Shown here: one piece after another, positions 1,575 through 23,518 of the stretch
Position numbering within the stretch: the stretch's first letter is position 1
Layout: the number at the start of each line of letters is the position of its first letter
Origin: a virus
Virus record (IMG/VR): IMGVR_UViG_3300044511_000041
Location: 1-23,609 of that record
DNA: 23,609 bases
Strand: one strand, 5' to 3'
Translations under genes and position numbers: made by a program
Notes under the pieces: model-generated
Databases searched by the model: none
Told to the model about the DNA's origin: nothing
What the model saw: the letters and a program-made list of their open reading frames with translations, nothing else

Positions 1575-3839
1575 CTATGAAGTAGGCGCTGTAATATCGA
1601 TAAAGAAAATAGTCACCCGAACTCGCCCGGTATCTGCTGCCGGGGCTACGTTCGGAGTAATCCTAATCGCTTGGGCCGTACCATTGTTATATGGACAGTT
1701 AGCCGTGCCTTTATTAGTTGTGCCCGCAGCAGTCGAGACGCTAGCTCCGGTATTAAACGTCGTACCGCTGGTAGCCCCGGTCACGGTAAAAGTAGCCGCG
1801 GTGGGAATGACCGTAGTCACCCGTACTGCTACGCCCAGGACCATCGCATTTGCCGGGATGGTGATGGTAGTATCTGTTGTAGCTGCCGCTGCGATAGTAG
1901 TTAACTCGGTTGCAGCCTTAATGCTCACTTCCTGTCCATTAAGACGTGTTACTTTAGAACTTTGCCCTGCCTCCACGTTTCGAGCCGCAATTACATCTTG
2001 AGAGGCGTTAAAGCTATAGCTCCAGAAGCCATTGTAAGCATCGATAATCGTGTTTGGATTATTATTGTATGTAGCAGGATTATAATCATGCGTCCGTACA
2101 ATCTTAGTCACATCCGCAGGCACCACACCTGCCGATACAACGATAGTAGTATTCACGCCCCCGAAAGTGCTGTCAGAAGCACACGTTGACCAATATATTT
2201 GACCATCTGCTCCAAGGAACATCACCTTATAATCTTTGAGAAATTTGCTGGTCTGGTCCCCGGATACCGTAACCGTAGTCGCATTGACATAGGTCGCTGT
2301 GAATTGCTGGTTATAATTGGGCACCAGCATGTTAGCCAGGCTGAAATCGCGGGGCGTCGTGCCGTACATCTTGAGAATGCCCCGTAACGATGTATGAGAC
2401 CAGAGGACAATAGGAATATGAAGGGTATCATCAATCCCTTCCATCCATAGGTGATCTAAGCTAATTGCCCGGTGCGGTTCTCCTACCGCAGCATCGCCAA
2501 ACATGAAAGCTACGCCGCTTCCGCCCGTACCATTCTTCAGTACGGGACTACTGACCGCATTCCATGCCTTGCAGAGAGTAACCTTGAAATCTTTGACCGC
2601 ATGGAAGGTGCCCAGACGCTTCATGGTCCCCCGCCAGTGACATTGCGTAAAATGCAGGCTATTGTCTGATGCAGTACCCCCGGTCCATTGGAAATAATAA
2701 GCCCCGGTGGAGGCATTACAGTCCCGCATGTCTACGCCGTCGAATTTAATATCATAAGCCCTGGCGGGCGTCCCAGAGTTAGTTACATGGTGAAAACCGA
2801 TCTGAGTCGTAGCTGGATTATGCCAGACAGTAATATCTTTAAGCCGCAGCCGGATAAATTCATGGGCAGAATAGAACCATTTAATATTATTGGCATTGGC
2901 GGACATATCCACGGTATAGTCGCTATCGTAGTCCCGCATGTTGAAGTCGGTTGATCCGCTGTATATATCCTCATAGCTGGTGAATAAATCCACGGCCCCG
3001 GTGGGCTTTAGGATGGTAGAAGGGCCGGAACCTTTCAACCCCACCAGTTTATGGCGGTTTACCGTAGAGGCGTTAAAACGAAAAGTACCCGTGCTGAGTT
3101 TTACCCAGCCGTATTTACCGCCGTTCTTCACTGCCAACATAGAGGCATTGAGAGCCGCTGCATTATCCGTGGAATCGTCGCCGATGCACCCCAGCCATTC
3201 CCCCCAGGGCTGCGTAATATTGGAATAAGTAATCGCCGCTGTACCCTGGAGATTGAATACCTTGTAAGGGCCAGCAATCTCGCCGACAGAACCAATAGTT
3301 AAAGATGTAGCCGTAGGGACCGTGATAAGGCCGGAGGCTGATCCCCGCGTAACCCATAACTGAATATTTGCAGGAATATTGGAAGTGAGCGTAACCGCCT
3401 GATCTACGATTAATGTCTTGTAAGCTGCGCCGATGGTGGCTATGGCCCCGTCAATATCGCTTCCGGCCAGGACTACGTTAGTAGAAGTAACCCACTCGAC
3501 ACCGTTGATATTGTCCACCGGCCAGCCGGAGACTGCGCCGTCTGTATTGGTCTTGAGGTTCCACTTATAGGAGCCGGAGCAGTAGAACAGGGCCTCGCCG
3601 TTAGAATCTAATATTACCGGGTTGCTGGCGGGCGTAGTCAATCCCTGATCCGTGTAGACCGCTTTTGGGGTGCTGGTCCCCGCTGCATAGGTATAGAGCT
3701 TGTACCCGGAAGCAGGCGATCCGTCTGCTTTCTTGTAGGAAAACTTAGGGTAAGTCCCTACCCGGACGGCTTGGGAAACCCCGGCCAGAGCCAGGATAAC
3801 CAGGGCAATCAAAGGAATTAACAAGCGCCGGTAATTCAT
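1575..3839 (-). CDS. Tailspike / tail fibre protein with beta-helix domain and signal peptide
   Basis: 754 residues. AAGGAG lies 8 bases before the ATG. Residues 1-24 form a Sec-type signal (basic MNYRR, hydrophobic core, VSQA cleavage site). Residues about 30-110 (FSYKKADGSPASGYKLYTY, then PVILDSNGEALFY) resemble the head-binding or adaptor domains at the N-terminus of P22-type tailspikes. At about residue 215, GDDSTDNAAALNAS followed by KLSTGTFRF matches the start of Pectate_lyase_3 beta-helices. The last 110 residues (TTDTTITIPANAMVLGVAV, then RVRVTIFFIDITAPTS) form a separate beta domain of a kind I associate with phage tail protein C-termini, possibly for trimerisation. It lies after the gp16-like gene, the tailspike position. 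Host polysaccharide binding or cleavage is inferred. The signal peptide is unexpected in a virion protein. Confidence 0.85.
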   Translation of the reverse strand: MNYRRLLIPLIALVILALAGVSQAVRVGTYPKFSYKKADGSPASGYKLYTYAAGTSTPKAVYTDQGLTTPASNPVILDSNGEALFYCSGSYKWNLKTNTDGAVSGWPVDNINGVEWVTSTNVVLAGSDIDGAIATIGAAYKTLIVDQAVTLTSNIPANIQLWVTRGSASGLITVPTATSLTIGSVGEIAGPYKVFNLQGTAAITYSNITQPWGEWLGCIGDDSTDNAAALNASMLAVKNGGKYGWVKLSTGTFRFNASTVNRHKLVGLKGSGPSTILKPTGAVDLFTSYEDIYSGSTDFNMRDYDSDYTVDMSANANNIKWFYSAHEFIRLRLKDITVWHNPATTQIGFHHVTNSGTPARAYDIKFDGVDMRDCNASTGAYYFQWTGGTASDNSLHFTQCHWRGTMKRLGTFHAVKDFKVTLCKAWNAVSSPVLKNGTGGSGVAFMFGDAAVGEPHRAISLDHLWMEGIDDTLHIPIVLWSHTSLRGILKMYGTTPRDFSLANMLVPNYNQQFTATYVNATTVTVSGDQTSKFLKDYKVMFLGADGQIYWSTCASDSTFGGVNTTIVVSAGVVPADVTKIVRTHDYNPATYNNNPNTIIDAYNGFWSYSFNASQDVIAARNVEAGQSSKVTRLNGQEVSIKAATELTTIAAAATTDTTITIPANAMVLGVAVRVTTVIPTAATFTVTGATSGTTFNTGASVSTAAGTTNKGTANCPYNNGTAQAIRITPNVAPAADTGRVRVTIFFIDITAPTS

Positions 3840-3851
3840 TGATAATACTCC

Positions 3852-3880
3852 TTGCTTTTTGGGGAAAGAATATTTATTTT
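3852..3880 (+). promoter_or_regulatory. Weak candidate plus-strand promoter in the tailspike/ejection gene gap
   Basis: TTGCTT (3852-3857) is followed after 17 bases by TATTTT (3875-3880). A start site 7-8 bases later would fall on the ATG of the small plus-strand frame at 3888, giving a leaderless message. The match is only partial (4 of 6 in both boxes), and the gap is AT-rich enough to produce this by chance. Confidence 0.22.
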
Positions 3881-3887
3881 CTCAGTT

Positions 3888-3986
3888 ATGAAAATTCTGC
3901 TTATCATTTTCGCCATTTTGTGGGCCTTAAACCTTATTGGGGATGTTTGGCGATCTTTTGACCTCGCCGATTACCCAAAAAATTAA
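3888..3986 (+). CDS. Possible 32-residue membrane protein on the opposite strand
   Basis: This is a 32-codon frame in the only sizeable gap of the tail block, and the only plausible gene on the plus strand. The product starts MKILLIIFAILWALNLI, a single membrane segment, followed by a short polar tail (DVWRSFDLADYPKN). No well-spaced ribosome binding site is present; a purine run (GGGGAAAGAA) ends 17 bases upstream. A weak promoter-like pair would start the message at or next to the ATG. The last codons overlap the end of the convergent gp16-like gene by 4 bases. Small single-pass proteins of phages include holin-like and exclusion proteins, but nothing here identifies one. It could be a chance frame. 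Confidence 0.28.
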   Translation: MKILLIIFAILWALNLIGDVWRSFDLADYPKN

Positions 3987-5587
3987 GGCTCCTCCGGCAA
4001 ATTTAGCGGTTTACCCGCAATATTTGAACGGGTTAGCCTATGGGCACGGTCTAAACCTATGGCCAAACGTGCTTTAACTATAGGTGAGTCTAAAACTCGT
4101 TTCACCAAAAACATCAACCCTGCTCCTTCCACGGTGCCCTGTGCCGCTCCGCCCACGCCGCCTGCCACAATATCGCCTAATCTGATTACCTCGTAATTCC
4201 TGATCCGGTGAACCGATCTCTCTAAGACTTCATTAAGATTGATTTTATCCGCCCAATCCTTATTAAGCCGTTGAAGTTCCGGAAACTGCTTTTCAAGTTC
4301 TTCTTTCAGGCCCCGCGCCAAGGTTTTATCAAATTCTCTTGACAAATTAGTCATTTCACCATAGGCATCTTTCTGAACCTGATATAGACGTTTTTTCATG
4401 GTCTGCGCCACATCTACGGGGATAGTTTGACCTCGATATTGCATTATCCCTGCCTTAGCTTCATCTATTTTCTGAAGGTATCCGGTAGGATCGGGCATAC
4501 CCCTATAGTAATCCTTCAAATCTTCAAGTCTGCTTGCCGCTTTTTCAAAATCTATTACTTTCCCGGCCTTAGCTCCTTCATCTATCATCTTGTCTATGTC
4601 GGTGCCGATCCGGGCGCCTTCTTTTTCAAGTCTGGCAAGAGACGCCTTATTAGGCAAATATGCCCCTTCTATGCCGGTCTGGACTACCCGGTTACGAATA
4701 TCGGCAGGCACGGAAGGAGGGATTTTTAGCGCACTCTCGTAAAGGTGAGGGGCCAGTTTGCTTCCGGCCCACTCCCCCACTATTGAGGGAACTTTTCCAA
4801 GTAATCTTAAATATCCTGGTGCCGCGGCCAAGGAACCGACAAGCGCCGCCCCACCAGTAATCATCTCCTTTTCCTCTTCCGTGGCTTTTGGAAAGGATAG
4901 GTCAAGAAGGGGCCTGATAGTTTTCTGGCTTGCAGTTTTCATCAACCATTCCAGAGGCACAAAAGGAGCGTTTGCGATTCCCCCGGCAATCTTAGCGGCT
5001 GGTCCTGCCCCTTCTGAAAACATAGATAGAGATTCAGAAGTCGGATCGCTCAAAGACGGTTCGGGGGGGGCTTGCAGAGATTGAGCATCAATCCCTGCCA
5101 ATTCCTGGCTAAAGTCCTTGGTAATGACCGAAGACCCAATGGAATTTAGCTCAGACATAAAATCTGGTTTTGCAGCTCCGGCCCGAACAGTCATTTCCTT
5201 ATTCAAATCCCGCCTTTCAATATGCCAAGGTTCGTTCTTGCCGCTCTTTCCTTGTCCTAACATGGGCCGATGAAAACCGTATTTTTCCAAAAGTCCCATA
5301 TTGGCAAGTTCGTTAGCCTGATCTGTGTCTAAATCCATAGCCATGCCTATCTCATGGCGAGAAGTGCCGGGGGGAGCCGCCAAGCTCGGTTTGGTTCGGT
5401 AGGCTTCCGCCTGAGTATCATAAGACCGCCAGGCATCACCGATTTTTAGTTCTTTTCCGGTTTGGGAAAAGTAATCATGAGCCATTTCATCAAATGAAGA
5501 CATGAAATCGGTATCCATGCCCACCAAATTTGCCTGACCGACATAAGGGGAGCCAGCATAAGCTAATTCTTGTAAGAATTTAGACAC
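3983..5587 (-). CDS. gp16-like ejection protein with N-terminal M15-type peptidoglycan peptidase
   Basis: 534 residues. The start is GTG, directly after the TAA of the preceding gene (TAAGTG), with a GTGGGG-like binding site about 10 bases upstream. Residues about 45-125 carry the VanY/M15 metallopeptidase signature: DAWRSYDTQAEAYRT, then SRHEIGMAMDLD with H78 and D85, then EPWHIE with E119 and H122. H78, D85 and H122 are the expected zinc ligands and E119 the catalytic acid. The remaining about 400 residues are Ala/Gly-rich and helical, with charged helical stretches around residues 320-450 and hydrophobic segments near 240-270 and 460-490. This is the third ejection-protein slot, held by gp16 in P22 (about 609 residues). 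It probably enters the host envelope with the DNA and locally cuts cross-linking peptides of peptidoglycan. The peptidase is seen directly; the ejection role is inferred from position. Confidence 0.82.
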   Translation of the reverse strand: MSKFLQELAYAGSPYVGQANLVGMDTDFMSSFDEMAHDYFSQTGKELKIGDAWRSYDTQAEAYRTKPSLAAPPGTSRHEIGMAMDLDTDQANELANMGLLEKYGFHRPMLGQGKSGKNEPWHIERRDLNKEMTVRAGAAKPDFMSELNSIGSSVITKDFSQELAGIDAQSLQAPPEPSLSDPTSESLSMFSEGAGPAAKIAGGIANAPFVPLEWLMKTASQKTIRPLLDLSFPKATEEEKEMITGGAALVGSLAAAPGYLRLLGKVPSIVGEWAGSKLAPHLYESALKIPPSVPADIRNRVVQTGIEGAYLPNKASLARLEKEGARIGTDIDKMIDEGAKAGKVIDFEKAASRLEDLKDYYRGMPDPTGYLQKIDEAKAGIMQYRGQTIPVDVAQTMKKRLYQVQKDAYGEMTNLSREFDKTLARGLKEELEKQFPELQRLNKDWADKINLNEVLERSVHRIRNYEVIRLGDIVAGGVGGAAQGTVEGAGLMFLVKRVLDSPIVKARLAIGLDRAHRLTRSNIAGKPLNLPEEP

Positions 5588-7171
5588 TTATTCAATACCC
5601 CACTTTTTGCCTAATTCCTGCATTTGCTGCAATAATTTCTGCTTTTGCGGACTTTCCGACATTGCTTTGACTTGGGACAGTTTGGTATCGTAAGCCTGGC
5701 GTTCTTCAGAAGATAGTTTATTCGTTTCCCCTCCTTTTTTCCCTCCCCCAATAATATCCGGCCTTTGAACCTTGTTTTCCTTAACCAAATGGGGAAAAGC
5801 AGTAGAAAATTTATCATCAACATATTTCGTCACAGTATTTATATCGTTTTGAATACGTTGATGTTCCATATTAATCCCTTTGGCCCTATTTTCTAACTCC
5901 ATTTGCATAACAGCGCCAACATTCTTAAACTGGCTTTTGTTTAGCGTTGTATTGAGCAAATCCCAAACCTCTTTTCGGGCAGTATCGGACACCACGCCGC
6001 CCGCTCCGGTAGCACTAGTCATTACTTTGGCCCATTCATTGGCAGTCGGTCCCACTATCGCCTGAAATGCCTTAACATCTTGGTTCATTGGGACTTCTTG
6101 TCCCATGATTTTTCCTTGAAACCATTGCAGCCAGGCATTGGCAGCAGGGGAACCAAACCTATCTACACCTTCAGATAGTTTGTTTCCTAAATCAATATTC
6201 AGACGGGCATTATTGGTAAAGGCTTCGATTAATGCCTGTTGACCAGCGAGCCTTGTTTTTGCTGTATTCAATGCTTTGTAATTACTCTGAATACTTGCAA
6301 TGTCTTGTGTGTCAAAACCGGCATTATAAGCCATGTCAGCAACTTTGCCTTTTTCTAGTCCCCGGAATGATGTCATAGATTTAGCGCCTAATATCCACGC
6401 TTTAGCATTCATCAATGTAGCACCTTCCGGCGTGGAAATACCTAATGCTGCCGCATCCTTGGGAACTGCTCCAGGAAATGGAGGCGAGTTTTTATCTCCG
6501 TAAGCCCACCTTGCAGAATTGTCGGGGTCTATATATAAGATTTTATCTTCCTTATGTTTCGGCCCCCCCAGGCCCGGAATCAGACTAAAGCTCTTATCGG
6601 GGGGAGCTAAGGGGTCAAACACCCCACCCACTTCCGTTTCACCGACTTGCCCGGTCTTAAACTGCGGCAATCCATGCCCCTTCATTCGCATCACAGCCGC
6701 ACTTGCCCGATCTGTAAACCCTTCATCATATTCTGAAGGTAGAACCAATTCTAAAAGTGGAACTGATTGCACTAATCCTGCCCGGAGTTTAGGATAAAGC
6801 ATTGCAGCCTGGGGATTGCCTTTAAGTGCTTGAAGTTGCTGGACACCAAATTCATAGAGTTTAGGATTATCCAAGGCACTTTTTCGCAAGGCTTCTTGGC
6901 GAGCACCTAACATATTAACCACCGCCAGGGCCTTGTTTGGATCGGCCTTAGCTACTTCCGCCATGCCCGGCTGCGTAGGGCCTTTAGTGAAATCCAATCC
7001 CTGCAAAGCCTGCCCTAATGCCGCTTCTTGCGCCCGCTGCCGTCTCAGTTCGGTAATCCGTTCCCGGCGCAGTTCACCCTCAGCCTCGCGGTCCTGAAGA
7101 GTAGCCATGAGCATTAGCATATTTAAAGGGTTCGTCTGCTGCTGCGGCGGAATTAAAGGAGGTACTGGCAT
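5588..7171 (-). CDS. gp20-like DNA ejection protein (internal virion protein)
   Basis: 527 residues, long and mostly helical. It has a Pro/Gln-rich start (MPVPPLIPPQQQ), a highly charged helix at about 27-50 (REAEGELRRERITELRRQR) and a Lys/Gln-rich helical end (QKQKLLQQMQELGKKWGIE). No signal peptide, membrane segment or enzyme motif is visible. It starts 2 bases after the gp7-like gene and its stop codon abuts the start of the gp16-like gene. It therefore occupies the middle slot of the P22 series gp7-gp20-gp16, and its length is close to P22 gp20 (about 471). In P22 these proteins leave the capsid during infection and form a conduit across the envelope. Ejection proteins diverge fast, so the call rests on synteny and composition rather than a motif. 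Confidence 0.65.
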   Translation of the reverse strand: MPVPPLIPPQQQTNPLNMLMLMATLQDREAEGELRRERITELRRQRAQEAALGQALQGLDFTKGPTQPGMAEVAKADPNKALAVVNMLGARQEALRKSALDNPKLYEFGVQQLQALKGNPQAAMLYPKLRAGLVQSVPLLELVLPSEYDEGFTDRASAAVMRMKGHGLPQFKTGQVGETEVGGVFDPLAPPDKSFSLIPGLGGPKHKEDKILYIDPDNSARWAYGDKNSPPFPGAVPKDAAALGISTPEGATLMNAKAWILGAKSMTSFRGLEKGKVADMAYNAGFDTQDIASIQSNYKALNTAKTRLAGQQALIEAFTNNARLNIDLGNKLSEGVDRFGSPAANAWLQWFQGKIMGQEVPMNQDVKAFQAIVGPTANEWAKVMTSATGAGGVVSDTARKEVWDLLNTTLNKSQFKNVGAVMQMELENRAKGINMEHQRIQNDINTVTKYVDDKFSTAFPHLVKENKVQRPDIIGGGKKGGETNKLSSEERQAYDTKLSQVKAMSESPQKQKLLQQMQELGKKWGIE

Positions 7172-16603: not shown

Positions 16604-16646
16604 GAAATAAAAAAAGCTCTCCCGGTCGTTTTGACCAGGAGAGCTT
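16604..16646 (-). terminator. Intrinsic terminator between accessory gene and scaffold gene
   Basis: Fourteen pairs (16614-16627 with 16633-16646) close a 5-base loop (AAAAC in the RNA) and are followed on the minus strand by UUUUUUUAUUU. One pair (16623 with 16637) is G-U in minus-strand RNA but A-C on the plus strand, so the structure belongs to the minus transcript. It ends 19 bases before the scaffold start codon, with no room for a promoter between. The late operon must pass it, probably by antitermination. Confidence 0.9.
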
Positions 16647-16666
16647 CGTAAAGCCGTTCCGGTGTT

Positions 16667-16700: not shown

Positions 16701-17072
16701 TTATTTAATTAAACTTTTATATGTCCCAATATCTATTCTGATTAATTCATCTTTTGAAACTATATCATGACTGCTTATTATTGATATTTTAAATATACCA
16801 TATAGCATCTGAAGGCGATCGATGCTTGGTTTACTTTCTATTCTATTGCCACTAAACAGATATTCTTTCTTCTTAAAAGACTCCATTGCTTCTAATACTA
16901 TCGGCATTAAATAATTGCATGTAATGTCTTCTAAAGGCATTATAAATTCGTTAGTTGTCAAATTGATTGTTTTGCTATAAAAATATATGATCTCTTTATC
17001 CAATGCTTTATCTAACAAATATAGCATTTCATTGCCAATTATTTCATTAGTTATTAATACATTACATCTCAT
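16701..17072 (-). CDS. AT-rich accessory protein of unknown function (moron-like)
   Basis: 123 residues, no recognised family. The ATG overlaps the stop of the preceding 31-residue frame (ATGA), and GGGGA lies 8 bases upstream. The protein is Ile/Leu/Lys-rich with alternating hydrophobic and charged stretches (NEIIGNEMLYLLDKALDKE, YLMPIVLEAMESFKKKEYLF, LYGIFKISIISSHDI). It has no signal peptide or clear membrane span. Base composition is clearly more AT-rich than the flanking structural genes, and it is followed by its own terminator. Both are features of recently acquired phage cargo. It is not needed for the P22 assembly scheme. A host-interaction or anti-defence role is possible but not shown. 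Confidence 0.75.
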   Translation of the reverse strand: MRCNVLITNEIIGNEMLYLLDKALDKEIIYFYSKTINLTTNEFIMPLEDITCNYLMPIVLEAMESFKKKEYLFSGNRIESKPSIDRLQMLYGIFKISIISSHDIVSKDELIRIDIGTYKSLIK

Positions 17073-20120: not shown

Positions 20121-20356
20121 TAATTTTGATTCGCTTTTTCCAAGTCGTTAGGTGACAAGATGCTATTCGCATGGGGTAAGTCTATAATCTTATTATCTAT
20201 CAATACCGCTGTCGCTTTTAGTAGAAATATCAAGGTTTCCTTAACCCCAAGCGGCGAGTTGAGAGAAATATTGGCGTCCGCATGTACCGCTATTTGGATC
20301 ACACCTACAACCTGCTTTCCTGTCTGGCGCTCTGCTTTTGCTTGTTTGTGACTCAT
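20120..20356 (-). CDS. Unknown 78-residue protein after TerL
   Basis: No family recognised. I chose the ATG at 20356 because it overlaps the TerL stop as TAATG; the frame is open 15 bases further upstream, inside TerL. The start is basic and polar (MSHKQAKAERQTGKQVVG), followed by a beta-like strand (VIQIAVHADANISLN) and a hydrophobic helix (KETLIFLLKATAVLIDNKII) that looks like a protein core rather than a membrane span. It is the first of three consecutive TAATG junctions from TerL to portal. Position suggests a packaging or portal accessory role, but nothing in the sequence shows it. Confidence 0.7.
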   Translation of the reverse strand: MSHKQAKAERQTGKQVVGVIQIAVHADANISLNSPLGVKETLIFLLKATAVLIDNKIIDLPHANSILSPNDLEKANQN

Positions 20357-21693
20357 TACATCCCCATCCATCCACTAGAAGTGCGTAATCCTTGCATAAC
20401 TTGAGCCGTTTGCTGCTGCACTATTCTTTCCTTGAACCGATGCGACAGAGCTAGGGTTTGAAAAGCATCCGCCGGATGCGAAGCCCAATCATGGATCGGC
20501 TGCGTCTTATAAACTCGGTTTTTATCGTCGTATTCGCTGCGATAGCTGGCGAGGCCGTCTAATCCCTTGCGACAGTTTTCCTCGTCAAAGTAGCAAACGG
20601 GGAAGATATTACGGATTGCCTGATGTCCATCCTCTTTCCTGGCTGGCCGTTGAGCCACATGAAAATTCAAGCCCAGGGAGGCAGCAGTTTTGAGGCGTGT
20701 CCTGCCGGTCCCAAGCTCTTTAACCGTTATATCGTGCGGCGCCCAATGATCACCATAGACCCCGGCCCATAGGTCTAATTTCTCCCTAAGGATTCGGGCA
20801 TAAAACTCTAGTCCTTCCCCCCGGTTCTCATAATAGGCAATCACATGAATCGCCCGGCCTACATTTTGCGTGAACCATATCGAAGTGGAATCATCAACCC
20901 CTAAATCCCACCAGGTATCAACCGGAATGCCGGACTGAAAAGGCACGCGGGTTATCCGGCCCTGCTCCCTGGCCCGCCTTAACTCCCCAGCAAAATAGGC
21001 TCCAGGGGCAGCAGCCTCGAATGAACAGTAGAATTCCTGATCAATCATCTCGTCAGACATACCCGCCTGGCGCTCAGACTCAATATCTTCGCGGGAAATA
21101 ATGCCGGTATCATCTACGGTTAGGAGTTCGCAAAACCAGGAAGAATTGTAAGTAGCGGAAACGTATAGTTCGTAAGCATGGTTTCGGCCGCGAGGCGTAA
21201 ACAGAAACAATGCCCACCCTTTGTTTTCAAGTAAAATCGGCCTGAAATAATCCCAGGCCCGCGGGTCTTGAAGGGAAAACTCTGAAAAGACTACGCCCAC
21301 CGGGTTAGTGCCCATGACATTGTCGAAATTGTCTGAGCCAATCACTTGCCAGAGGGAACCAACTTTTGTAGTCAATTTCATCTCAGTGGCATTAGGATCG
21401 CCTGAGATTAGTTCCGGTGGCCAGTAATCAAGAAAGGGTCTGCCATGTCGGTCCTTACCATCCCAGATTACTTTACGGCCCTGATTAGTTTTGGGGAGAA
21501 AATGATAATAGTTGCCAGGCCGCTCGCAAGAGGCGTACACTGTCCAGTTTAGCGATGTCAGGTCTTTCCCGGCTCGGCGGTGCCAGACACAGACAGCCCG
21601 CTGACCGCCGATTCGCATTCCTTGCCGCATATATTGCAACATGGAGCGTTGATAATTCCTTGGTTCCCAGTTATAGGGGAGACTTATTTCCAC
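20356..21693 (-). CDS. Terminase large subunit (TerL): packaging ATPase and nuclease
   Basis: 445 residues from the GTG at 21693, chosen because AGGGG lies 8 bases upstream; the TTG at 21699 is only 2 bases from that site. The N-terminal ATPase has the adenine region WEPRNYQRSML, a deviant Walker A (VWHRRAGKD, about 36-44), Walker B VGVVFSE (about 132-138) and the coupling motif LFLFTPRG (about 162-169). The C-terminal RNase H-like nuclease has an acidic cluster in WWDLGVDDST (D263, D267, D268), a second motif GVYGDHWAPHD, and a last acidic site HPADAF near the end. It cuts concatemeric DNA and pumps it through the portal into the procapsid. It overlaps TerS by 23 bases and its stop overlaps the next gene. 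Confidence 0.95.
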   Translation of the reverse strand: MEISLPYNWEPRNYQRSMLQYMRQGMRIGGQRAVCVWHRRAGKDLTSLNWTVYASCERPGNYYHFLPKTNQGRKVIWDGKDRHGRPFLDYWPPELISGDPNATEMKLTTKVGSLWQVIGSDNFDNVMGTNPVGVVFSEFSLQDPRAWDYFRPILLENKGWALFLFTPRGRNHAYELYVSATYNSSWFCELLTVDDTGIISREDIESERQAGMSDEMIDQEFYCSFEAAAPGAYFAGELRRAREQGRITRVPFQSGIPVDTWWDLGVDDSTSIWFTQNVGRAIHVIAYYENRGEGLEFYARILREKLDLWAGVYGDHWAPHDITVKELGTGRTRLKTAASLGLNFHVAQRPARKEDGHQAIRNIFPVCYFDEENCRKGLDGLASYRSEYDDKNRVYKTQPIHDWASHPADAFQTLALSHRFKERIVQQQTAQVMQGLRTSSGWMGM

Positions 21694-22018
21694 GGTCAAA
21701 ACCCCTGAAATTGATAGTTAATTCCCCCTCAACATGCTGCTTTTGTCTAGGGGGAGCAAAATCATCCCTGAACTCAGGATGCCTCTCTAAAAAGGCCAAG
21801 GGGTTTGTTTTTCGCATCTGTTCCAAGGGGTCCGTAGCAATCTCTATCGTCTTAAGAGCTAAATCCCTTAGAAAACTCTTTTTCTTTTTCCAAGCCCCGA
21901 CAGTATTTTCATGCACTCCAAGAGCGCGGGCAATCAGTGCCTGAGACACGCCAGAAGCTAATTTTGTGATAACAAATTCCCGTGTTATAGGGTCATCTAT
22001 AGGAGATGGTCTGGCCAT
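21671..22018 (-). CDS. Terminase small subunit (TerS) with helix-turn-helix
   Basis: 115 residues from the ATG at 22018, preceded by GGGGAGG 7 bases upstream. An upstream in-frame ATG at 22075 would lie inside the previous gene and lacks such a site. Residues about 20-45 (SGVSQALIARALGVHENTVG, then AWKKKK) are a clear helix-turn-helix of the kind found in TerS and HTH_23/29 families. A helical middle and a Pro/Arg-rich end follow. It directly precedes and overlaps TerL. TerS rings recognise the packaging start site and hand the DNA to TerL. The pac or cos site cannot be located from this sequence, but is often within or near TerS. Confidence 0.82.
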   Translation of the reverse strand: MARPSPIDDPITREFVITKLASGVSQALIARALGVHENTVGAWKKKKSFLRDLALKTIEIATDPLEQMRKTNPLAFLERHPEFRDDFAPPRQKQHVEGELTINFRGFDRGNKSPL

Positions 22019-22020
22019 AT

Positions 22021-22245
22021 TTAAACCTCCCCACCGTATTCTTCGGGGAGCTTCCATTCCTTGTGGCATCTGCAAAATGCATTATGTTGGGGATATAATG
22101 GGCATAGGTTGCCCCCCGCTTTATTCCACTTGATCTGGTCTTCGGTTGACATATCTATATTATCATATGGATACCAGCGCCCATCTAATGCCCACTTGCC
22201 TATGGGTATCTCTACAAACCTGATAATCCTTTCTGTTTCTAACAT
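22021..22245 (-). CDS. Unknown 74-residue Cys/His protein upstream of TerS
   Basis: No family recognised. The stop lies 2 bases before the TerS start, and its last codons contain the TerS binding site. The protein has a hydrophobic start (ETERIIRFVEIPIGKW), a Trp/Tyr-rich middle (LDGRWYPYDNID) and a Cys/His cluster (C48, H54, C58, C60, H61 in LCPLYPQHNAFCRCHKEW) that could bind a metal. It does not have the HNH nuclease pattern. The ribosome binding site is weak, and an internal ATG at 22152 would still keep the cluster. It is the first gene after the structured RNA region and probably heads the packaging operon. HNH or zinc-finger proteins often neighbour terminase genes, which is suggestive only. 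Confidence 0.6.
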   Translation of the reverse strand: MLETERIIRFVEIPIGKWALDGRWYPYDNIDMSTEDQIKWNKAGGNLCPLYPQHNAFCRCHKEWKLPEEYGGEV

Positions 22246-22329
22246 TGTTAGTTTCTATCTTTCTAAACTTCTAAATCCTGATATTTCTAAGGTTATATAC
22301 TCGCAAGTTTATTAACCATAGGATTTATC

Positions 22330-22716
22330 GGGCCAGCGATGTTATATCCGGTTATTGGCTCTCGCTACACCGGCAGAGTTTTTTCTGGTTCGTATGCCTC
22401 ACGCGCCCGTTTATCCGTTCTCCCCACTCCGAGAGGGATTATCGGCGGCTAACCTTGCTTCGCCGGGTTGATTCCCGGCTGGCCGCCCTATGGGTTCTTA
22501 AAATCGGGGAGGGTCGACGCCTCGTTCTTTGTTCGCCCTCCCTCCTTCCACTAAGTTCGGCCCGGCATTCCGCGGAGCCTATCCCCGTATCGGAGAAACA
22601 ATAATCACTGGCAGGACTCAGGAGTGCACTTCCCACCGGCTACCAGCGACACCTATGCGCAGTTCCTAGGATTTTAACCCCCCCGGCCAGGGGCCTTGCA
22701 AGGCGTATCTTCTTAA
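22330..22716 (-). ncRNA. Candidate large structured RNA (or long structured leader) upstream of the terminase genes
   Basis: This block is much richer in G and C than its flanks and holds no convincing gene. It begins just after a strong promoter. Stems that fit minus-strand RNA: 22606-22614 with 22640-22648 (9 pairs, two of them G-U only on the minus strand); 22444-22449 with 22482-22487, enclosing a perfect 6-pair hairpin 22462-22467/22474-22479; 22508-22513 with 22536-22541, extended by 22515-22517 with 22533-22535; a hairpin 22573-22577/22583-22587 (one minus-only G-U); 22652-22655 with 22667-22670; 22332-22335 with 22356-22359; and 22681-22684 with 22690-22693. No terminator follows, so it may be processed from, or be the leader of, the terminase message. 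I found no match to tmRNA, RNase P, SRP, 6S, group I or group II landmarks. Families such as ROOL and GOLLD need a covariance search. Confidence 0.62.
22693..22704. promoter_or_regulatory. Perfect 12-base palindrome, possible operator
   Basis: GCCTTGCAAGGC lies 19 bases downstream of the -10 box of the promoter before the structured RNA. The half-site GCCTTGC also occurs in the spacer of the same promoter (22731-22737), and CGCCTTGCA occurs just after the -10 box of the Panacea gene promoter (23529-23537). A repressor binding site is possible. It could equally form a hairpin at the 5' end of the RNA. Confidence 0.3.
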
Positions 22717-22722
22717 TTTCCT

Positions 22723-22752
22723 AAAATAAAGCAAGGCAACCGCAAAAGTCAA
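22723..22752 (-). promoter_or_regulatory. Sigma70-type promoter for the structured RNA and terminase operon
   Basis: TTGACT (22752-22747), an 18-base spacer and TATTTT (22728-22723) read on the minus strand. An A/T-rich tract (ATAAAATTTTC) lies immediately upstream of the -35 box and could act as an UP element. The -35 region shares TTTTCTTGAC with the promoter of the Panacea gene. The predicted start is near 22716, right at the edge of the GC-rich block. Confidence 0.65.
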
Positions 22753-22957: not shown

Positions 22958-23518
22958 TTAATTGGCATGTAATATAGCTGCAACATAATTTAAATCAGAT
23001 ACTTCATCATCAATCAATGCAATATCCCGCTCAGTTTTGCCAAGTTCTCTCAGTATATCTTCAATTCGAATTGGAATAGAACTTCCTTCGGGGTCTTGCC
23101 ATTCTGGTAATGTGTCATGACAAATTTTAACCATTTCCCATTCATCAAATGGTTTATATTTTTCATAAATACTTAATAATAATTCTCTCTCTCTCTTGCT
23201 CAATACATCGGCAGCAGGGACCTCAATTATTGCTACCTCGTAACCTGCGGGAGGGGAAATATATTTATGCCAATATGAATCAACCCCCGGGGCTTTGCCT
23301 GAATTAATTATATCCAACACTTTGCTTAAAACAGGCCCTCGATCCATTGAGACATAAAAATCGCCTGTTATTGGTCTTGCCCATCGAGACAAAGCTTCAC
23401 GATCGGCAAGATATAATAATTTGATAAGCTTCATATAATTCATCTTGCCGCCGTTTTCTTTTAAAAGCAAACCGACCGCCTCAGTAGTCTTGATTTCGTT
23501 GAATTTAAATCTAATCAT
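22958..23518 (-). CDS. Panacea-domain (DUF4065) antitoxin-like protein
   Basis: 186 residues from the ATG at 23518. The longer frame starting with TTG at 23569 is rejected because that TTG is the -35 box of the promoter. The domain pattern is clear: KTTEAVGLLLKENGG, then MNYMKLIKLLYLADREAL, then DFYVSMDRGPVLSKVLDII, and later HDTLPEWQDPEG. This is the fold of SocA/GepA-type proteins, which neutralise diverse toxins in PanAT systems. The gene follows a terminator and has its own promoter, and its composition is AT-rich, which suggests cargo rather than core phage. No normal-sized toxin gene follows; one could lie beyond the right edge, across the terminator. Possible jobs are blocking host toxin-antitoxin defence or stabilising a prophage. 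Confidence 0.85.
   Translation of the reverse strand: MIRFKFNEIKTTEAVGLLLKENGGKMNYMKLIKLLYLADREALSRWARPITGDFYVSMDRGPVLSKVLDIINSGKAPGVDSYWHKYISPPAGYEVAIIEVPAADVLSKRERELLLSIYEKYKPFDEWEMVKICHDTLPEWQDPEGSSIPIRIEDILRELGKTERDIALIDDEVSDLNYVAAILHAN

Follow-up and report, generated by a model that had tools for sequence, protein, structure and literature searches.

A conserved four-way-junction RNA ahead of the packaging and head genes of very different phages

From a GC-rich island to a compact RNA core

What is a GC-rich stretch with no obvious gene doing directly in front of the terminase genes of a phage? The question is raised by the window, i.e. the whole 23,609-nt stretch of IMG/VR record IMGVR_UViG_3300044511_000041 analysed here, in which an earlier note had proposed a large structured RNA at positions 22330-22716. 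This island lies on the minus strand, which is also the strand of the packaging genes. It is flanked just upstream by a gene for a SocA/Panacea-domain antitoxin-like protein (22958-23518, minus strand; E 7.8e-20), for which no obvious partner toxin was found inside the window, and downstream by a 74-aa ORF of no family (22021-22245), a probable TerS with weak helix-turn-helix profiles (21671-22012) and the adjoining TerL (20356-21699; phrog_2, terminase large subunit, E 1.7e-21), all on the minus strand; a P22-like portal and coat are encoded in the window as well. The description of the island as GC-rich and gene-poor is borne out, its GC content being about 0.6 compared with 0.35-0.45 in the flanks and no convincing gene being present, and so is the remark that landmarks of common RNA families are missing from it, given that no Rfam or tRNA landmark was found there.

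The claim of a structured RNA before the terminase genes needs to be narrowed, however. Taken as a whole, the 387-nt island folds no better than its dinucleotide shuffles on either strand (z -0.04 for both minus and plus), whereas the true signal comes from its 3' part together with 14 nt beyond its edge at 22330, that is, from 22316-22493 of the minus strand (z -2.46). The element is thus about 180 nt long rather than 387 nt, and it still adjoins the terminase genes, the 74-aa ORF that forms the first frame of the packaging operon following it after 70 nt. The 5' half (22495-22716, minus strand) displays structure at chance level (z +0.48), nor did any homologue of it turn up, blastn homology to L105, a contig described below, starting only from 22476 downward; this half is possibly a leader between promoter and RNA. 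The three pairs previously singled out because they work as G-U in minus-strand RNA (22607/22647, 22612/22642 and 22576/22584) are indeed pairable only in that strand, but all of them fall into this unconserved half. The promoter-like site in front of it (TTGACT-18-TATTTT, 22723-22752, minus strand) had been called strong, an epithet that is unsupported because the site matches at 9 of 12 positions and nine such sites occur in the region when 7.1 are expected by chance.

The 178-nt core (22316-22493; all coordinates of its parts refer to the minus strand) adopts a four-way junction of helices P1 to P4, a fold worked out for the members by hand and with RNAalifold, in which P1 is the closing helix, P2 and P3 form hairpins and P4 makes a long arm. 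P1 joins the 5' arm CCAUAGG (22487-22493) to CCUAUGG (22316-22322). P2 (22445-22486) pairs GCGGC (22486-22482) with GCCGC (22449-22445) and encloses a further hairpin, GCCGGG-AAUCAA-CCCGGC (22479-22462), whose AAUCAA loop is common to contig L105 introduced below; a tRNA-like mini-helix spotted by eye on the plus strand (22444-22487) is nothing but P2 read backwards, and ARAGORN reports no tRNA. After J2/3 (CGAU, 22441-22444), which is invariant in the 10 complete members, come the P3 hairpin UCCCU-CUCGGAGU-GGGGA (22421-22438), the likewise invariant J3/4 (ACGGAUAAA, 22410-22418) and the P4 arm (22329-22409), where CGGGC-GCG (22409-22402) pairs with CGC-UG-GCCCG (22338-22329) and a distal hairpin is formed by CCGGU/ACCGG (22373-22369/22352-22348). 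J4/1 reads AUAAAU in the window (22323-22328) and AUAAUU in most members. Across the class, the RNA measures roughly 160-180 nt and its joiners are near-invariant (CGAU after P2, ACGGAUAAA before P4, and AUAAUU, AUAUUU or AUAAAU after P4), such that about 19 near-invariant unpaired nucleotides surround the junction. RNAalifold also returns a variant in which P4 is lengthened by pairing between GGAU (J3/4) and AUUC (J4/1), so that the boundaries of P1, P2 and P4 may shift by a few pairs.

Members of the class and covariation of the helices

Is this RNA peculiar to the window? An exact scan with GGATAAACGGGCGCGTGAG returned a single contig, L105, which is 66.8% identical to the window over 226 nt (E 4e-21; 22476-22253 of the minus strand), and shorter and gapped patterns then yielded L109, L112, L114, L117 and L119, followed by L144, L145, L162, L171 and L176. 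The patterns AATCAANNNNNNCGAAGCAAGG and ATCGCTGGCCCGATAA gave chance matches only, L105 excepted. Given that the RNAs of L145 and L171 are identical, there are 11 distinct members, namely the window and 10 other viral contigs, with L162 cut at its 5' end; judged by these sequences, the class spans at least eleven very different phages. A covariance model built from L109, L112, L114, L117 and L119 only, with the window and L105 held out, recovered both the window (43.4 bits, E 1.6e-9; 54.7 bits at 22315-22494 when run unfiltered) and L105 (49.9 bits, E 4e-11), and nothing else rose above noise across 94 loci. The window accordingly displays what defines the class, i.e. the P1-P4 junction, CGAU, ACGGAUAAA and AUAAUU-like joiners, and a place before packaging/head genes on the same strand.

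In all six records searched whole, there is one copy of the RNA per contig. L002-L088, a set of TerL relatives from IMG/VR and genome contigs that was covered as whole contigs for 37 of them, yielded no copy, so the RNA does not track TerL lineage. A search with TerS returned no relatives, and a host search via the TerL of L117 returned none either; no copy was found in 395 genomes of Desulfobacterota and 398 of Pseudomonadota, where the single pattern match, L138, is due to chance; this is a weak negative, as only seven candidates were scored per genome.

The strongest proof of the fold is provided by the changes in the P1 arms. P1 covaries at all eight positions, its arms reading GUCCUGCG/CGCAGGAC, AUCAUGCG/CGCAUGAU, CCUGCGCG/CGCGCAGG and ACCUCCAG/CUGGAGGU across members, CCAUAGG/CCUAUGG in the window and UCGUAGCU/AGCUACGA, extendable to 13 pairs, in L145. 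P2 covaries, as does P3 (GCCUG/CAGGC in L105, GUACACA/UGUGUGC in L145), and in P4 four members have A-U instead of G-C at the third pair, both partners having changed. In the last scan, whose P4 pattern R...Y did not force U opposite A, all four distinct matches with a 5'-A carried a 3'-U. A hand alignment of the 10 complete members has 216 of 220 core cells paired (shuffle maximum 192) and 41 double-change cells (shuffle maximum 23), figures to be read beside the model-fitted test because the arms were chosen by eye. In the latter, which covers all 11 members and is itself biased towards the structure used for fitting, 97.2% of cells pair and double changes occur at 15 pairs; there are 45 double-change cells compared with 10.8 expected, none of 500 shuffles reaches any of the measures, and sliding the partners by 1-3 columns brings pairing down to only 32-43%. 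Covariation among homologues, set beforehand as the test of the earlier proposal, is therefore seen, and the alternative of a conserved reading frame finds no backing, six-frame stops revealing no frame shared among the members. In every contig that extends into the neighbours, the packaging/head genes that follow have the conserved strand as their coding strand; the wobble tally (three G-U in the sense strand, two A-C that would be wobbles in the antisense) does not settle the strand by itself. That a conserved structured RNA class exists is thus close to certain.

Does it correspond to any RNA already described? At gathering scores, none of the member RNAs (in the window and 10 member loci) is matched by an Rfam 15 family, and at E<=10 the window island collects chance matches only, among them RAGATH-23 on the plus strand (E 0.64). 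Of the earlier suggestion of an abundant RNA of the ROOL/GOLLD sort, the family assignment is not upheld, as neither gathering scores nor a search of the window island at E up to 10 brought up ROOL, GOLLD, HEARO or OLE; ROOL and GOLLD RNAs are alike in being phage-borne, conserved and structured, but they are much larger and often lie near tRNA islands, not terminases (PMC12286853). Blastn with the RNAs of the window and five other members against cultured phages and plasmids gave no credible match, and full-text searches of the literature turned up no description of such an RNA, though one may exist outside Rfam. The RNA at 22493-22316 is therefore best regarded as a new class, not in Rfam 15, even though its mode of working may be of a known regulatory kind.

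Genomic setting of the RNA

Wherever a member has downstream sequence, the RNA adjoins terminase or portal genes and shares their orientation, mostly with 60-130 nt between it and the first packaging/head gene. In nine contigs it lies upstream of small-then-large terminase genes; in L112, L114, L117, L119, L144, L162 and L176 it is closely followed by a small TerS or helix-turn-helix gene and then by TerL. The TerL proteins are of different families, gpA in L109, Terminase_6 in L112 and L119 and Terminase_3 in L114 and L117, with other TerL profiles matching those of L144, L162, L176 and the window. In L109, the RNA occupies one contig end, and the Nu1-like TerS and gpA TerL open the other. 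This 37.4-kb contig (L109/G401) breaks off 75 nt beyond the RNA and resumes about 154 nt ahead of TerS, as though it had been opened at the cos site. A different arrangement is met in L145 and L171, where tail tube is followed by the RNA, head closure, DNA end protector and T4-type portal, in this order. In the T4-like L145, it is the head-closure and DNA-end-protector genes plus the RNA (2608-6254) that stand between tail tube and portal; in the cyanophages P-HM1 and P-TIM40, its nearest cultured T4-like relatives, the tail tube directly adjoins the portal and the RNA is absent from the region fetched. The downstream genes of L105 are unseen because the contig ends 221 nt after the RNA.

On the other side, the upstream gene is a holin in L117 (PF05105) and, by inspection, a small membrane-like protein in most others of the L117 subgroup; in several members the RNA begins 15-40 nt after this lysis-type gene. 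In L112, L114, L119, L162, L176 and L144, but not in the window or L105, the stretch from the RNA to the ribosome site of TerS contains another, shorter hairpin whose 3' side is conserved (UUCGGGGGUCUUG-like).

What could the RNA do?

It is rare for an RNA to be conserved across phages whose packaging motors differ. Here, the junction core stays near-unchanged from a lambda-type contig of 70% GC to a T4-like contig whose copy has 46% GC, which suggests that the RNA probably meets a need common to very different phages late in infection. What mechanism could then account for the homology, fold, covariation, conserved position and same-strand orientation shown here? As its neighbours range from gpA/Nu1, Terminase_6 and Terminase_3 to a T4-like portal, no single phage packaging protein is common to the members, and host machinery, or no partner at all in the case of a ribozyme, is a likelier counterpart than a packaging protein. 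It seems somewhat probable that the RNA acts in cis on host machinery. The best explanation as a whole, to which a probability of about 0.4 can be given, would be an unlisted phage RNA class working in cis in the manner of put of phage HK022, where RNA alone antiterminates over at least 10 kb (PMC9378689). According to this model, the RNA would be read with the nascent late transcript, act in cis on a host component and, by binding the elongating RNA polymerase, permit read-through of terminators in the long head operon with no protein required.

The put-like reading is favoured by the HK022 precedent in combination with internal terminators and with the lack of any Q family found. The window contains a strong intrinsic terminator in the head operon (16613-16647, minus strand; -26.7 kcal/mol, with a stem of 15 bp and a T tract), with the ribosome site and start of the scaffold gene within about 20 nt downstream. 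Because it stands directly before scaffold and leaves no room for a promoter, expression of scaffold and coat from upstream needs read-through. Operon-internal terminators occur in L117 and L162 as well; the association is only suggestive, with a strong internal terminator in 3 of 10 RNA-bearing phages compared with about 1 of 27 control loci without the RNA. Q-type antiterminators (PF06530, PF03589) were found in none of the 11 member contigs, which proves little as these contigs are partial. Like put, the RNA is structured and leads a long operon with internal terminators, and it would need the host RNA polymerase only; put, however, is about 70 nt long, consists of two stem-loops and serves early operons (PMC9378689), whereas the RNA described here has 160-180 nt, a four-way junction and a late/packaging operon, and no homology or resemblance in sequence or fold to the two-hairpin put RNA was found. 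A further point against antitermination is that in several members the RNA begins after a lysis-type gene, not beside a promoter. The antitermination mechanism itself, argued by analogy, should therefore be considered tentative; if it applied, it would represent a way of controlling late genes without any protein. Antitermination is likewise the role of EAR/epsC-type leader RNAs. These too precede long operons (epsC motif, PMC2864571), but of exopolysaccharide genes rather than of phages, and Rfam gives no match.

Could the RNA instead cut the late transcript? A self-cleaving ribozyme or RNA-processing site between lysis and packaging genes, with the joiners as catalytic or recognition core, would agree with the tight intergenic spot seen in several members, where the RNA starts 15-40 nt past one gene and 60-130 nt separate it from the next, and with the roughly 19 near-invariant unpaired nucleotides at the junction. 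Hammerhead ribozymes are found in phage intergenic regions too (PMC3088659). Conserved junction nucleotides are a further feature in common with them and with other phage-borne self-cleaving ribozymes. Yet the junction order and core differ from those of hammerhead and other phage ribozymes, and hammerhead, twister, hatchet, pistol and other Rfam ribozymes are not matched, so that cleavage, which would make this a new ribozyme class, is rather unlikely. A similarly low standing is assigned to a riboswitch-like or translational leader that would tune the first packaging/head gene to a ligand or host factor. It could invoke the 5'-leader position and, in one subgroup, a short hairpin (of the CCC-UUCG-GGGGUCUUG type) after the RNA and just before the TerS ribosome site; but the window and L105 do without this hairpin, the downstream gene varies (TerS, small ORF, head closure) and nothing clear was found that could pair with P1 instead.

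As to a part in DNA packaging, which had been raised before, the suggestion draws on genomic position only. A trans-acting packaging or capsid-assembly RNA at the portal would be comparable to phi29 pRNA in being encoded by tailed phages and tied in position to packaging genes, which it adjoins in all members with downstream sequence, and the finding of just one copy in each of six fully searched records would suit it. The phi29-like version is nonetheless argued against because phages with different terminases carry the RNA: terminases and portals come from different families, the members have TerS-TerL or T4-type motors instead of a phi29-type motor, which lacks TerS, the window's closest TerL relatives lack the RNA and Rfam returns no pRNA match. 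To our knowledge, lambda-type and T4-type motors work without RNA in the relatives that have been studied. This makes a portal RNA improbable, although it would overturn the view of packaging RNA as special to phi29 relatives. A DNA-level packaging site whose inverted repeats mimic RNA stems is very improbable. Cos and pac sites commonly adjoin terS, and the gpA/Nu1 contig L109 does end 75 nt past the element, but the P1 arms are fully altered yet paired across about 150 nt while junction strands are conserved, and the element also occurs in a T4-like contig beside portal, not terminase, genes. Pairing is kept while the P1 sequence changes completely, which suits an RNA much more than a site acting as DNA. 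Stems arising by chance from high GC content, which the whole-island z of about 0 would seem to favour, still stand as the account of 22495-22716; for 22316-22493 they are contradicted by the held-out homologues and by covariation far beyond shuffles, and their likelihood is next to nil. Finally, a widespread, horizontally moving RNA class that alone would govern the packaging/head switch in podo-, sipho- and T4-like phages, be it as ribozyme, antiterminator or capsid/portal RNA, appears less probable than not by a clear measure. Whichever way it works, an RNA of roughly 180 nt is a clean, testable target.

Two minor observations concern the reading frames around these elements. In the window, an AT-rich, moron-like ORF of 123 aa (16701-17072) precedes the terminator at 16613-16647. 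The frames that lie upstream of the RNA in L117 (9313-9861, the holin) and in L105 (13704-14411) stop only inside its 5' part, and coding and RNA structure therefore overlap there.
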